From assembly GCA_014799505.1 (NCBI GenBank), contig JAAVHV010000006.1, forward strand, positions 1 to 34,357: a DNA stretch of 34,357 nt, read 5' to 3'. The DNA comes from Clostridiales bacterium. Its GTDB lineage: Bacteria; Bacillota; Clostridia; Oscillospirales; Oscillospiraceae. The notes under the pieces were generated by a model. It did no database searches, was not told the origin of the DNA, and saw only the letters and a list, made by a program, of their open reading frames with translations. A program made the position numbers and the translations under genes. Positions 28,957 to 32,794 of the stretch are shown here, one piece after another. Each line of letters begins with the position of its first letter. Position 1 is the first letter of the stretch.

Positions 28957-29757
28957 ATGGCGAAAAAGAAATCAAGCGGTGGCGGCGGCGCCAACTGGAT
29001 GGATACATACGGCGACATGGTAACGCTTCTGCTGTGCTTCTTCGTCCTGCTCTATTCCATGTCCACTATCAGCGAGGACAAGTGGAAGGCCATCGTGCAG
29101 TCCTTCAACCCTTCCGGCGTGATCGCCCAATTAGAAGATATTCAGGGCGGCAGCGGCCCCAGCGCCGACGAGAACCAGGGGGGCGGCGTGTTCGACAACC
29201 CGGACGCCGCCCAGGAGGAAATTGAAGAGATGCTGGAGCAGATGGCCGAGGAGCTCAAGCAGATGGCCGCCGACGAGGGGCTGGCCAGCGCCATCTCCGT
29301 GGAGCTGACCGGCGGCAAGATCTACGTCAAGTTCAGCGACACCGTGTTCTTCGGCGGCAACAGCTCCACGCTGAAGCCGGAGGCCAAGGAGATCCTGCTC
29401 AAGGTGTGCGCCGTGCTGGACGCGGGGAAGGACGCCATCGAGGAGATCCGCATCCAGGGCCATACCGCCCAGGCGTCCGATAGCGAGCCGAATGAACCCT
29501 ACGGCGACCGTCAGCTGGCCAGCAACCGGTCCCTTGAAGTGCTGTACTTCATTCAGACCAACAGCTCTATCCACCCCGGCCGGCTCATCAACGAGGGCTG
29601 CGGCCAGTGGCGGCCCATTGATGACAACCAGGGCGAGGAGGGCAAGGCCCCCAACCGCCGGGTTGAAATGATCATCAGCGGTGTGGACCTGGAGAACAAC
29701 AGCGAGCTGCACGAGGAGCTGTCCCAGTTTATCAGCTTAGACGGCGGGGAGCCGTAA
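28957..29757 (+). CDS. motB: Flagellar motor stator protein MotB
   Basis: MotB anchors the stator to peptidoglycan. The 266-residue protein has a basic Gly-rich N-terminus, one membrane helix starting at the ion-binding aspartate D20 (TYGDMVTLLLCFFVLLYSMS), a linker rich in Glu/Gln, and an OmpA-like C-terminal domain (IRIQGHTAQ, RQLASNRSLEVLYFI, NRRVEMII). The helix sequence around D20 reads closer to sodium-type MotS/PomB than to proton-type MotB; ion choice is inference. AAAGGAG precedes the ATG. Only 39 bases separate it from fliM. Confidence 0.94.
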   Translation: MAKKKSSGGGGANWMDTYGDMVTLLLCFFVLLYSMSTISEDKWKAIVQSFNPSGVIAQLEDIQGGSGPSADENQGGGVFDNPDAAQEEIEEMLEQMAEELKQMAADEGLASAISVELTGGKIYVKFSDTVFFGGNSSTLKPEAKEILLKVCAVLDAGKDAIEEIRIQGHTAQASDSEPNEPYGDRQLASNRSLEVLYFIQTNSSIHPGRLINEGCGQWRPIDDNQGEEGKAPNRRVEMIISGVDLENNSELHEELSQFISLDGGEP

Positions 29758-29796: not shown

Positions 29797-30840
29797 ATGG
29801 CTGAGGTATTGTCGCAGAGCCAAATTGATGCGCTTTTGAACTCGATGCGCAGCGGCGGCGATGCGGATAAGGCGGAGGAAAAGCAGCCGGAGAAGAAGTA
29901 CCGGAAATATGACTTCACCACCCCCCGCAAATTTACCAAAGACCGGATCAAGATGCTCAACGGCATCTTCGAGAACTATACGAGGGTCATCAGCTCCCGG
30001 CTCAACGCCCAGCTGCGCACCAACTGCGAGATCACGGTGGAGAGCATCGAGGAGCAGAAGTTCTACGAGTTTAACAACGCCCTCACAGAGGGGGATGTGC
30101 TGGCCATGGTGGACACCACCATCCATCCCATTGCCCGCCCTGGGGATTCAGGGGGAGTGGACAAGGACGTCGTGGTGGAGGATCCAGTGATGGTGTACCT
30201 ATCTACATCCACCGCGCTGGCGATGATGGATCGGATGATGGGCAGCGAGGACAACTCGGAGAGGGATGCGCCCATGGGGTACGCCTACACAGACCTGGAG
30301 CTCCAGCTGTACGAACACCTGATGAGGGACATCATCACCCTGATGGGGAGCAGCTGGGAGAACTACGTGCCCATCACGTTTGAGTACAACCGAACCCAGG
30401 TCAACCCCACCTTGGTTCAGCTGCTGAACCTGGACGAGACAGTGGTGCTGGTGGACATGAAGCTGAATTTCGGGGGCAGCGAGGGCCGCATGAGCATCGT
30501 GCTTCCGGGCAATATGCTGATGAGCGTATTCGGCGAGGTCAACCGGGAGAGCATGGGCCGCAAGGTGGCCAGCGAGGACAACTCGGACGAGATCTTCGAC
30601 AAGCTGCGGGACTCCAGCTTGGAGATCATCGCCGAGCTGGGCGAGACCCGACTCTCCCTCAGTGATATTTACCACTTGAACGTGGGCGATGTGGTGGATC
30701 TGGGCAGATCGAAGGATTCGCCGGTATTTTTGGAGATCGGCGGATACCAGTGGTTCACCGGGCGCATGGGAACCCACAAGAAAAACATGGCCATCAAGAT
30801 AGACGAGGTGTGCTATTCGGCCGAACAAAGGAGCGAATAA
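29797..30840 (+). CDS. fliM: Flagellar motor switch protein FliM
   Basis: FliM is the switch protein bound by phosphorylated CheY. The 347-residue protein has the CheY-P-binding peptide LSQSQIDALLNSM at 5-17, a short linker, the middle CheC-like domain (from YDFTTPRKFTKDRIK) and the C-terminal FliN-like domain (LSLSDIYHLNVGDVVDLGR). AGGTGAGGTGA precedes the ATG. fliY starts three bases after the stop codon. Confidence 0.95.
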   Translation: MAEVLSQSQIDALLNSMRSGGDADKAEEKQPEKKYRKYDFTTPRKFTKDRIKMLNGIFENYTRVISSRLNAQLRTNCEITVESIEEQKFYEFNNALTEGDVLAMVDTTIHPIARPGDSGGVDKDVVVEDPVMVYLSTSTALAMMDRMMGSEDNSERDAPMGYAYTDLELQLYEHLMRDIITLMGSSWENYVPITFEYNRTQVNPTLVQLLNLDETVVLVDMKLNFGGSEGRMSIVLPGNMLMSVFGEVNRESMGRKVASEDNSDEIFDKLRDSSLEIIAELGETRLSLSDIYHLNVGDVVDLGRSKDSPVFLEIGGYQWFTGRMGTHKKNMAIKIDEVCYSAEQRSE

Positions 30841-30843
30841 CGG

Positions 30844-32349
30844 ATGGAGAAGGAAATGTTCAGCCCAATGGCGATCGACGCCTTGGGCGAGATGATGAAT
30901 ATCAGCCTGGGCTCCTCGGCCACCGCGGTGTCAAATATGCTGGATCATCGGGTGGATATTACCACACCCACGGTCTCAGTGGTGGACGTGAAGGACTTTA
31001 CCCTGGGGGAGCTGGAGCCGGCCATCGGCGTGGAAATCAAGTACGTTGAGGGCCTGGAGGGCAGCAACATCATGCTGCTCAAGCGCAGCGACATCAAGAT
31101 CATTGTGGACATCCTCATGGGGATGGAGACGGCCGAGGAAGACTTCGAGCTCAACGAGCTGACCATCAGCTGCGTGTGCGAGGTCATGAACCAGATGATG
31201 GGCTCGGCGGCCACCGCCATGTCCGACTTCCTGGGCTTCCGGGTGGACATCTCCACGCCTGAGTCCTTTGAACTGGACAATCTGGATCAGTTCAAGCAGG
31301 ATCGTATGCCCCAGGGCGCGGATCAGGTAGTGGTGGTTCGGTTCTTCCTGAAGATCGAGAACGCCCTGGAAAGCGAATTTATGAACGTCATGTCCGTGAG
31401 TCTGGCGAAGGAACTGGTAAAGAGCCTGGGGCTGGAGGACGAGGTGTCCAGCAGTGTGCCGGACGGCGCGCCCCTCCCGGAGGCCGCCCCCGAGCCGGAG
31501 CTCAGCAACCGGGTGATGAGCCAGGAGGAGATCGAGGCCATGCTCCACGGAGGCGGGGCGGCTTCCGCTCCCGAACCGCCTGCTCCGGAGCCCAGCAACC
31601 GGGTGATGAGCCAGGAGGAGATTGAGAAGCTGCTGGCCGGAGGCATCCCGGCCGCCGAGCCGGAGCCCGCTCCCGCTGGCGGCGACAAGAAAATGAGCCA
31701 GGAGGACATTGAGAAGATGCTGGCTGGTATGAACAGTGAGCCCGCTCCTGCGGCTCAGACGGCGCCCTCCCAGGCTCCAGCAGCCCAGGCGGCACCCGCT
31801 CAGGCTCCGGCGGCGCAGATGCCGCCCCAGGGAATGCCCGGCCCCCAGATGGGCCAGCCGGGGCAGATGCCTCCCTACCCCTATCCGCCTATGCCCGGGC
31901 CGGATGGACAGATGCAGGGCGGATACATGGGCTATCCCCCCATGTACTATCCGCCGTACCCCTACCCCTATCCCCCCCAGCCGGAGCAGCCCCAGAAGGC
32001 CCCTCCCGAGCCCAAGGTCATCGCCACCAAGCCCGCGCCCATGGAGCAGCTTGATGCGGCGGAGCGCCTGGGCAAAGAGCAGGCGCAGAACCTGGATCTC
32101 ATCATGGAGGTGCCCCTCCAGGTGACGGTGGAAATCGGCAGGGCGCGCCGGAAGGTGCAGGATATCCTGGAGTTCGCCAAGGGGTCGCTGGTAGTGCTGG
32201 ATAAGCTGGCCGGCGACCAGGTGGATCTGTTTGTCAACGGCAAGTGCATCGCCCGGGGCGAAGTGGTGGTCATTGAGGACAACTTCGGCGTCCGCATCAC
32301 CGAGATCGTGCAGACCCCAGGCATTGAAATGCTGGCAACCGGCAGATAA
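30844..32349 (+). CDS. fliY: Flagellar motor switch phosphatase FliY with three internal CheY-binding-like motifs
   Basis: FliY is a switch component that also removes phosphate from CheY-P in Gram-positive bacteria. The 501-residue protein starts with a CheC-like domain (about 5-200) that has both phosphatase motifs, E16-M-M-N19 and E113-V-M-N116. Then come three copies of MSQEEIE-type peptide (221-234, 251-264, 281-293) at an exact 30-residue step, a long Pro/Ala/Gln/Met/Tyr linker (about 298-398), and a C-terminal FliN domain (about 412-490, LDLIMEVPLQVTVEIG). In Bacillus subtilis FliY one such peptide is at the N-terminus; here it has been moved inside and tripled. AAAGGAG precedes the ATG. 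Confidence 0.93.
   Translation: MEKEMFSPMAIDALGEMMNISLGSSATAVSNMLDHRVDITTPTVSVVDVKDFTLGELEPAIGVEIKYVEGLEGSNIMLLKRSDIKIIVDILMGMETAEEDFELNELTISCVCEVMNQMMGSAATAMSDFLGFRVDISTPESFELDNLDQFKQDRMPQGADQVVVVRFFLKIENALESEFMNVMSVSLAKELVKSLGLEDEVSSSVPDGAPLPEAAPEPELSNRVMSQEEIEAMLHGGGAASAPEPPAPEPSNRVMSQEEIEKLLAGGIPAAEPEPAPAGGDKKMSQEDIEKMLAGMNSEPAPAAQTAPSQAPAAQAAPAQAPAAQMPPQGMPGPQMGQPGQMPPYPYPPMPGPDGQMQGGYMGYPPMYYPPYPYPYPPQPEQPQKAPPEPKVIATKPAPMEQLDAAERLGKEQAQNLDLIMEVPLQVTVEIGRARRKVQDILEFAKGSLVVLDKLAGDQVDLFVNGKCIARGEVVVIEDNFGVRITEIVQTPGIEMLATGR
31504..31722 (+). repeat. Three 90-bp tandem repeats inside fliY
   Basis: Copies begin at 31504, 31594 and 31684. The first two share 29 identical bases from AGCAACCGGGTGATGAGCCA onward; the third keeps ATGAGCCAGGAGGA. 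Each encodes a MSQE(E/D)IE-x-(M/L)L peptide followed by a Gly/Ala/Pro/Glu spacer. Exact nucleotide identity between copies 1 and 2 implies recent duplication or strong selection. Confidence 0.85.
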
Positions 32350-32425: not shown

Positions 32426-32794
32426 ATGGCTAAGAAAATTCTGTTAGTGGACGATGCCGCGTTTATGCGCAAGATGATTAAAGACACGCTGACCAAGAAT
32501 GGCTACACCGAGGTGTTCGAGGCTGTGGACGGCGCCGATGCCGTGGAGAAGTTCAGCGAGATCGGCCCCGACCTGGTGGTCATGGACATCACCATGCCCA
32601 ACATGGACGGCCTGGAGGCCCTGAAGGCCATCCGCGCCAAGGACGGCAGCGCCAACGTGGTCATGTGCTCCGCCATGGGCCAGGAGTCCATGGTTATGGA
32701 CGCTGTGCGCTCCGGCGCCAAGGACTTCATCGTCAAGCCCTTTAAGCCCGACCGCGTACTTAAGACCGTCACCTCCATTCTGGGCGCGCCCTGA
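32426..32794 (+). CDS. cheY: Chemotaxis response regulator CheY
   Basis: CheY-P binds FliM (and probably FliY here) to change motor rotation. The 122-residue single receiver domain has D9/D10, phospho-acceptor D54 (VVMDITMPNMDG), S82 in the switch Ser/Thr position and K104 in IVKPF. Placement between fliY and fliO is typical of Gram-positive operons. AAAAGGATGG precedes the ATG. The 76-base gap upstream has no clear promoter. Confidence 0.95.
   Translation: MAKKILLVDDAAFMRKMIKDTLTKNGYTEVFEAVDGADAVEKFSEIGPDLVVMDITMPNMDGLEALKAIRAKDGSANVVMCSAMGQESMVMDAVRSGAKDFIVKPFKPDRVLKTVTSILGAP

Follow-up and report, generated by a model that had tools for sequence, protein, structure and literature searches.

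FliM-like candidate CheY-docking peptides in the CheC-FliN linker of FliY from one clade of Clostridia

To our knowledge, the way in which the CheY-P phosphatase of the flagellar motor captures its substrate has received little study except in a few models. CheZ, which is located outside the C-ring, has a single tail. The tail of CheZ is a CheY-binding peptide, according to the available part of one report (PMC12270135). CheY-P binds to the N-termini of FliM and FliY, as stated in an excerpt of another report (PMC7595845), and the N-terminal CheY-binding peptide of Bacillus subtilis FliY is described in the same excerpt and in a portion of a third paper (PMC8809382). FliY of this type, represented by NF005995, consists of one N-terminal LSQxEIDALL peptide, a CheC domain and a FliN domain in this order. 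One paper states that FliY carries the EIDALL motif in all motile bacteria (PMC9126983). Among the titles and abstract openings retrieved by full-text searches of open-licence papers, none concerned CheY peptides that are repeated in FliY or located in its linker.

The FliY protein analysed here is encoded at positions 30844..32349 (+) of a 34,357-nt stretch of DNA from a Clostridiales bacterium (the window, taken at its full length), between fliM (29797..30840, +) and cheY (32426..32794, +). It consists of 501 residues, with a CheC domain, a linker that carries three motifs and a FliN domain. It matches NF005995 with 329.5 bits (cut-off 218), and both PF04509 and PF01052 are above their cut-offs, with CheC before FliN in one protein; a weaker CheX match also falls on the CheC part. 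Its sequence matches the solved structures 4hyn and 1yab. Judged from these sequence matches, the protein is FliY, a CheC-FliN flagellar switch phosphatase. The N-terminal peptide is not required for this identification, because 33 other FliY proteins have no peptide at all. The protein has the same domains, the same CheC/FliN order, both phosphatase sites and the same peptide family as B. subtilis-type FliY, but it and its closest relatives (linker-type FliY) differ from that type in that they have no N-terminal peptide and carry one to five copies in the linker, with Glu at position 7 and Arg, Lys or Ala at position 8. Like E. coli CheZ, it has a phosphatase part and a chain with a CheY-binding-type peptide behind the catalytic part, but this phosphatase part is CheC-like and does not have the CheZ fold, so that the likeness is functional only. 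The SQxxI-(D/E)-x-L-L core is common to the linker copies and the N-terminal peptide of FliM, but the latter is single and N-terminal, with Asp at position 7 and, in linker-type loci, Gln at position 5.

Domains of FliY and the three peptides in its linker

The CheC phosphatase domain (approximately residues 5-200; 30856..31443, +), for which Thermotoga maritima FliY (4hyn) is the best solved match, starts at the very N-terminus of the protein (MEKEMFSPMAIDALGEMMNIS...), with no separate CheY-binding peptide ahead of it. The top score of the FliM profile described below over this N-terminus is 6.7 bits, in the first CheC helix. The domain contains two E..N..P phosphatase sites, at residues 12 and 109, when (D/S)xxxExxN-x22-P is taken by us as the motif of a CheC-type site. 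Both sites are kept in 97 of the 98 linker-type and 102 of the 106 N-terminal-type FliY proteins compared. The Pro/Ala/Gln/Tyr-rich linker that carries the motif copies (approximately residues 201-412; 31444..32079, +) is predicted to be disordered (pLDDT block means 36-65), and is followed by the FliN-like C-ring domain (PF01052; approximately residues 413-492; 32080..32319, +). In an AlphaFold2 model built from 76 aligned FliY proteins (mean pLDDT 67.6, pTM 0.49), the pLDDT is mostly above 90 in the CheC domain and low in the linker, and the FliN domain is poorly modelled. A Foldseek search with this model retrieves T. maritima FliY 4hyn first (TMt 0.84) and then CheC 1xkr; the FliN match is poor (rmsd 15-17) because the FliN part of the model is weak, and the search is silent on the linker. 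An earlier, sequence-only reading of the window had placed a CheC domain first, with no N-terminal peptide, then three motifs on a flexible, Pro-rich tether beside the phosphatase domain, and the FliN domain last. The order is borne out by the two Pfam matches, the absence of the N-terminal peptide agrees with the FliM profile, and the phosphatase domain and the flexible tether are supported by the E..N..P sites and by the predicted disorder and low model confidence of the linker, respectively. Downstream of the motifs, the linker contains two further repetitive stretches: 31744-31819 holds a tandem repeat of 30 nt, and 31873-31987, which is Pro-Tyr-rich, holds a repeat of 28 nt.

The three linker copies, with the consensus MSQE(E/D)IE-x-(M/L)L, are MSQEEIEAML at residues 225-234 (copy 1; 31516..31545, +), MSQEEIEKLL at residues 255-264 (copy 2; 31606..31635, +) and MSQEDIEKML at residues 284-293 (copy 3; 31693..31722, +). 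They coincide with model helices 227-235, 257-265 and 286-294 respectively, which are the only linker helices of at least four residues (block means 57-65); another helix in the model spans 411-420, at the border with FliN. The presence of three in-frame copies is confirmed. Their period, read earlier as exactly 30 residues, is 30 residues (90 nt) between copies 1 and 2 and 29 residues (87 nt) between copies 2 and 3. Copies 1 and 2 do share identical bases as proposed, but their longest stretch of identity is 30 nt instead of 29; that of copies 2 and 3 is 14 nt.

The ten-residue profile was made from FliM N-termini alone, and no FliY was included; the input was 234 distinct FliM proteins of the retrieved loci, in each of which a loose regular expression matched exactly once. 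Its thresholds, 9.4 bits (99% level) and 13.3 bits (99.9% level), were derived from the best scores of 4,740 shuffled linkers. Of two positive controls from outside the set, E. coli FliM scores 27.3 bits and the CheZ tail of the same species (ASQDQVDDLL) scores 18.0 bits. Copies 1 and 2 score 17.7 and 17.8 bits, and thus match the profile as strongly as the CheZ tail, and copy 3 scores 12.2 bits, which is below the 99.9% level and above the 99% level. The likeness to the CheY-binding peptide of FliM, as claimed before, is therefore supported by a profile built without FliY.

When the 228-residue linker of the window was shuffled 20,000 times, 192 shuffles contained one match of at least 9.4 bits and none contained two. 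Six-frame translation of the loci gives 4,927 other distinct open frames of at least 90 amino acids. Seven of these contain two or more matches at 9.4 bits; four of the seven are truncated FliY and three are copies of one 131-residue frame. Only S256, Q257, I260 and E261, all in copy 2, and P318 reach 90% identity within residues 201-411 of the 76-sequence alignment. The Q(E/D)(E/D)IE pattern, searched at the DNA level, occurs five times in the incomplete assembly (reversed control, one), and three of these are the FliY copies. The other two are one on another contig and one at 29212 in frame 28957-29757, which we take from its sequence to be MotB-like. The latter, AAQEEIEEML (29212-29226), scores 11.2 bits on the FliM profile and is probably a chance likeness. 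Two weak PDB matches to the N-terminal 34 residues of FliM were also taken for chance.

Placement, copy number and history among relatives of FliY

From 281 loci, 237 distinct FliY proteins with both domains were obtained, of which 106 have the N-terminal peptide, 98 have one to five linker copies without the N-terminal one, and 33 have neither. The shares of these types are not frequencies in nature, because the sample is derived from queries and choice by hand: the 98 linker-type proteins were found with the window protein as query (one source being the best 80 of 504 relatives), 60 of the 106 N-terminal-type proteins are the top matches of a profile whose span includes the N-terminal peptide, and the other 46, together with the 33 motif-less ones, come from 80 hand-chosen regions, many of them chosen for matches without the N-terminal part of the profile. 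Homologues had been proposed as the place to look for internal repeats and copy-number variation, and both are found there. At 9.4 bits, 104 proteins have one N-terminal peptide and no linker copy, one has two N-terminal peptides, one has one of each, 97 have linker copies only (one copy in 13, two in 34, three in 37, four in 11 and five in 2) and 34 have neither; row L041, with three copies near 9.2 bits, was reassigned by hand from the last class to the linker type. At 7 bits, the 98 linker-type proteins hold 255 copies (one in 12, two in 30, three in 43, four in 11 and five in 2). Two or more copies are kept in 86 of the 98, a count in which the threshold favours intact copies. Among the linker-type proteins from named strains, those of Oscillibacter valericigenes Sjm18-20 and O. 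ruminantium GH1 have four copies each, that of Lacrimispora algidixylanolytica SPL73 has two, and that of Agathobaculum massiliense Marseille-P4005 has one.

The N-terminal and linker peptides are mutually exclusive. A strict core regular expression, independent of the profile, matches the linker of 96 of the 98 linker-type proteins and of none of the 139 others, including the 106 N-terminal-type ones. The same expression matches the N-terminal tail in 86/106 N-terminal-type, 0/98 linker-type and 1/33 motif-less proteins, so that 20 of the 106 N-terminal assignments, some of them weak, stand without a strict core match. The top score of the FliM profile is 7.0 bits in the N-terminal tails of the 97 linker-type proteins that could be scored. 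In the single protein with one match of each kind, the linker match is a weak LLQTEADELS, and no convincing FliY with both placements is found in this sample. The linker is longer in the linker type (median 207 residues) than in the N-terminal type (91 residues). The first copy lies 27-48 residues from the CheC domain within the clade described below, and 152 of the 157 gaps between copies are 23-39 residues long. Runs of three prolines occur in 35 of the 98 linker-type linkers, as compared with 58.4 expected from shuffles (sd 3.7), and in 24 of the 106 N-terminal-type linkers, where shuffles give 18.6 and there is no deficit. The shortage in the former perhaps reflects avoidance of ribosome stalling.

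In a FastTree tree of the CheC and FliN domains without the linker, which contains 236 of the 237 rows (L084, with 204 residues, was excluded as too short), the 97 linker-type rows form one side of one branch with a support of 99. In a quick IQ-TREE analysis of 74 chosen rows, the 30 linker-type rows form one group with a support of 98; both groupings come from quick tree methods. Every member of the clade in the trees has at least one linker motif. By record title or NCBI rank, the members belong to Oscillospiraceae, Acutalibacteraceae, Butyricicoccaceae and Lachnospiraceae, with one row of Clostridium sp. Thus, the linker architecture is not a one-off but spans one Clostridia clade. The rows nearest to it are 11 motif-less FliY proteins, followed by one N-terminal-type row; eight of the 11 are in the IQ-TREE set, where the branching order is open. 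These motif-less proteins (L203-L207, L222-L223, L229-L232) are all from genomes with CheA. From this tree, it is probable that the N-terminal peptide was lost first and that the linker peptides arose later.

The copy number seems to have changed repeatedly. The FastTree tree requires a minimum of 27 changes at 9.4 bits or 30 at 7 bits, with 73 of its 231 inner branches being weak. Over the clade, copies within a protein differ at 1.50 of ten residues and copies of the same rank in different proteins differ at 3.10. Inside the genus of the window, these values are 1.72 and 1.85 respectively, without homogenisation. Concerted evolution of the copies is therefore visible over the clade and absent within the genus.

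Peptide code, CheY docking face and neighbouring genes

The linker copies have a code of their own. Among the 255 copies, Gln at position 3 (253), Ile at position 6 (249) and Leu or Met at position 9 (254) are nearly constant, position 5 is mostly Glu (215), position 7 is Glu in 241 and position 8 is Arg, Lys or Ala in 239. Position 7 is Asp in 233 of 234 FliM peptides and Asp or Asn in 105 of 106 N-terminal FliY peptides. The Asp that corresponds to FliM D12 is missing from all three window copies, which have Glu instead. Because of this Glu, the linker copies are best described as working like the FliM/FliY/CheZ peptide class, rather than as established members of it. FliM of linker-type loci keeps Ile-Asp in 92 of 92 cases, and its peptide is LSQSQIDALL in 77 of these, as it is in the window (residues 5-14; 29809-29838). 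Position 5 of the FliM peptide is Gln in 92/92 linker-type loci and Glu in 104/106 N-terminal-type loci. Replacement of Ile-Asp by Trp-Ala in the FliM motif of Caulobacter removes the density of the bound CheY homologue, according to an excerpt (PMC7534056). This result indicates that positions 6 and 7 matter jointly, and lends interest to the change from Asp to Glu. The EIDALL motif is not universal in the present sample, because 33 FliY proteins are motif-less, and the 98 linker-type ones carry the motif elsewhere and as EIE.

The presumed ligand, CheY, for which T. maritima CheY 1tmy and 4iga are the nearest solved structures, also differs between these loci. The residues of the alpha4-beta5-alpha5 docking face in linker-type (85) and N-terminal-type (76) loci are Glu and Gln at position 87, Lys and Gln at 107, Lys and Glu at 113, Thr and Ala at 114, and Ser or Thr and Lys at 117, respectively. 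Glu87, Lys107 and Thr114 are each already present in 11 of 11 CheY proteins of the motif-less sister group, and therefore do not track the linker peptides. Position 113 is Lys in 81/85 linker-type loci, Glu in 73/76 N-terminal-type loci and Gln in 11/11 of the sister group. Position 117 is Ser or Thr in 77/85, Lys in 75/76, and Lys (7) or Ser (4) in the sister group. In the E. coli complex 1F4V, FliM D12 is paired with CheY K119 and FliM N16 with CheY K122, as given in an excerpt (PMC2883070). With an offset of five, aligned around T87, Y106 and K109, these lysines correspond to positions 114 and 117 of the present CheY, and the window CheY has Thr at the site of K119. Four of the 13 discriminating CheY positions overlap with a list of 13 contacts (P 0.033). 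The enrichment on the face is weak, with P values of 0.033 and 0.046 at a cut-off that was set by the analyst. Positions 113 and 117, whose changes are one event in the tree, are suggestive of a possible co-adaptation of peptide and groove.

The fraction of loci with a cheY gene no more than 700 nt downstream of fliY is 85/98 for the linker type, 76/106 for the N-terminal type and 15/33 for motif-less FliY, as read in stretches of unequal length; in the remaining linker-type loci, cheY is elsewhere in the locus in 11 and the stretch ends in two. In the window contig, cheC, cheD and a gene for a CheW-receiver (CheV-like) protein also follow fliY. CheA is not found in the assembly of the window itself, which is 65% complete. 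Among 42 genomes of its genus, the 20 that have fliY include 17 with CheA, and the 22 that lack fliY include none. In a census by FliY type that omits seven of the 87 genomes on its list, CheA is present in 31/33 motif-less, 26/27 N-terminal-type and 20/20 linker-type genomes. These numbers rule out the idea that chemotaxis genes can be predicted from the presence of a peptide on FliY. Because motif-less FliY is mostly found in genomes with CheA, the FliY peptide seems to be dispensable to some chemotactic bacteria. For 18 FliY proteins of the genus, dN/dS is 0.011 for FliN, 0.088 for CheC, 0.234 for the motif and 0.285 for the spacer, the last two differing little, with an unreliable spacer alignment and with four or five of the ten motif positions varying freely. 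The constraint is seen more clearly in the column identities of the 76-sequence alignment given above.

Possible roles of the linker peptides

The explanation that we consider rather probable, arrived at from sequence comparison, is that the linker peptides dock CheY-P and feed it to the CheC phosphatase. The peptide of FliY would have moved to the linker from the N-terminus, or would have evolved there anew, at the base of one clade of Clostridia. Multiplication and turnover of the linker peptides would have followed, probably through slippage of the repeats. Each peptide would fold into a short helix that docks on CheY-P at its alpha4-beta5-alpha5 face, the groove for FliM, and the peptides would keep CheY-P at the C-ring and pass it to the CheC domain in the manner in which the CheZ tail serves CheZ. 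Both faces of CheY can be occupied simultaneously. More peptides would hold more CheY-P and increase the chance of rebinding, so that copy number would mainly set the amount of CheY-P held and the rate of its erasure at the motor, as a tuning knob and not as a source of cooperativity. An illustrative worm-like-chain estimate with assumed parameters puts the local concentration at CheC at 1-27 mM when the peptide is 27-107 residues distant, and all three copies could therefore serve CheC. The motif, its placement, its restriction to a single clade, the low-confidence tether, the phosphatase sites and the neighbouring cheY are observed; CheY-P binding by the linker peptides is what we infer from them. 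The linker copies are distinguished from FliM and from N-terminal FliY by the Glu at position 7 and the Arg, Lys or Ala at position 8, and this Glu argues against a plain copy of the FliM peptide. T. maritima FliY has no higher affinity for activated CheY, according to the consulted part of one paper (PMC7355467), and this counts against docking. The match to a FliM-only profile, the mutual exclusion of the two placements, the model helices on the motifs, the joint occurrence of fliY and CheA in the genus and the CheY differences at 113 and 117 speak for docking; the Glu at position 7, the Thr of this CheY in place of K119, the motif-less FliY in genomes with CheA, the small dN/dS contrast and the use of the window protein as query speak against it.

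Docking may be real and the number of copies neutral, if units of approximately 90 nt are gained and lost by slippage and selection keeps at least one. This has a substantial probability, though below even, and it overlaps with the docking explanation, so that the probabilities of the readings do not sum to one. It accounts well for the single copy in 12 and the two copies in 30 of the 98 proteins, for the 27 or 30 minimum changes, on a tree with its share of weak branches, and for the greater similarity of copies within proteins (1.50 against 3.10). It accounts less well for the two or more copies kept in 86 of the 98, as counted at a threshold that favours intact copies, for gaps mostly held to 23-39 residues, and for the lack of homogenisation within the genus (1.72 against 1.85). 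CheY is taken here as a monomeric ligand, and identical independent sites on a flexible chain should be occupied by such a ligand without cooperativity. By this reasoning, and because copy number spans one to five with 12 of 98 clade members having a single copy, the earlier proposal of cooperative or steeper switching through the array is unsupported, and we regard it as quite improbable; what speaks for it is anatomy alone, namely an arm next to the C-ring that bears several sites. In the enteric motor, moreover, the Hill coefficient of the bias is near 10 and CheY binding to overproduced complexes is non-cooperative, as stated in the same excerpt (PMC7355467).

The peptides might instead bind another partner, such as the receiver domain of CheV, CheC, CheD or a component of the C-ring, with the likeness to FliM being due to ancestry or convergence. 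The systematic IE-(R/K/A) of the linker copies, in loci whose FliM has Ile-Asp in 92 of 92 cases, and the presence of cheC, cheD and the CheV-like gene downstream are in favour of such a partner, but cheY is the usual neighbour, and copies 1 and 2 score on a par with the CheZ tail. We know of no alternative partner of this kind for the motif, and consider this reading unlikely. A chance similarity without function, as might arise in a repetitive, Pro-rich linker, is rejected as extremely improbable, since no shuffle of 20,000 has two matches, the motif is confined to a single clade and present in each of its members in the trees, and the Ser, Gln, Ile and Glu columns of copy 2 are near-invariant over 76 relatives. 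The possibility that the repeats are unconserved low-complexity sequence, which the sequence-only reading had named as grounds for abandoning its proposal, is contradicted by these columns.

Docking of CheY-P by the linker peptides, if it occurs, may be part of a wider change, in which the clade rewired its switch by losing the N-terminal peptide, placing one to five peptides behind the phosphatase and changing the CheY face along with them. This extended version is regarded as tentative, at a probability somewhat below even. If it is true, FliM (SQID) and FliY (EEIE-R/K) would read one CheY-P at different, tunable strengths, and the clade would have a CheZ-like erasing arm within the C-ring. 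The clade offers a natural series of one to five docking-like peptides in similar FliY proteins, which makes the effect of tether number testable. A docking-type peptide in the flexible middle of FliY, instead of at its front, could alter how these swimmers read and erase their steering signal.
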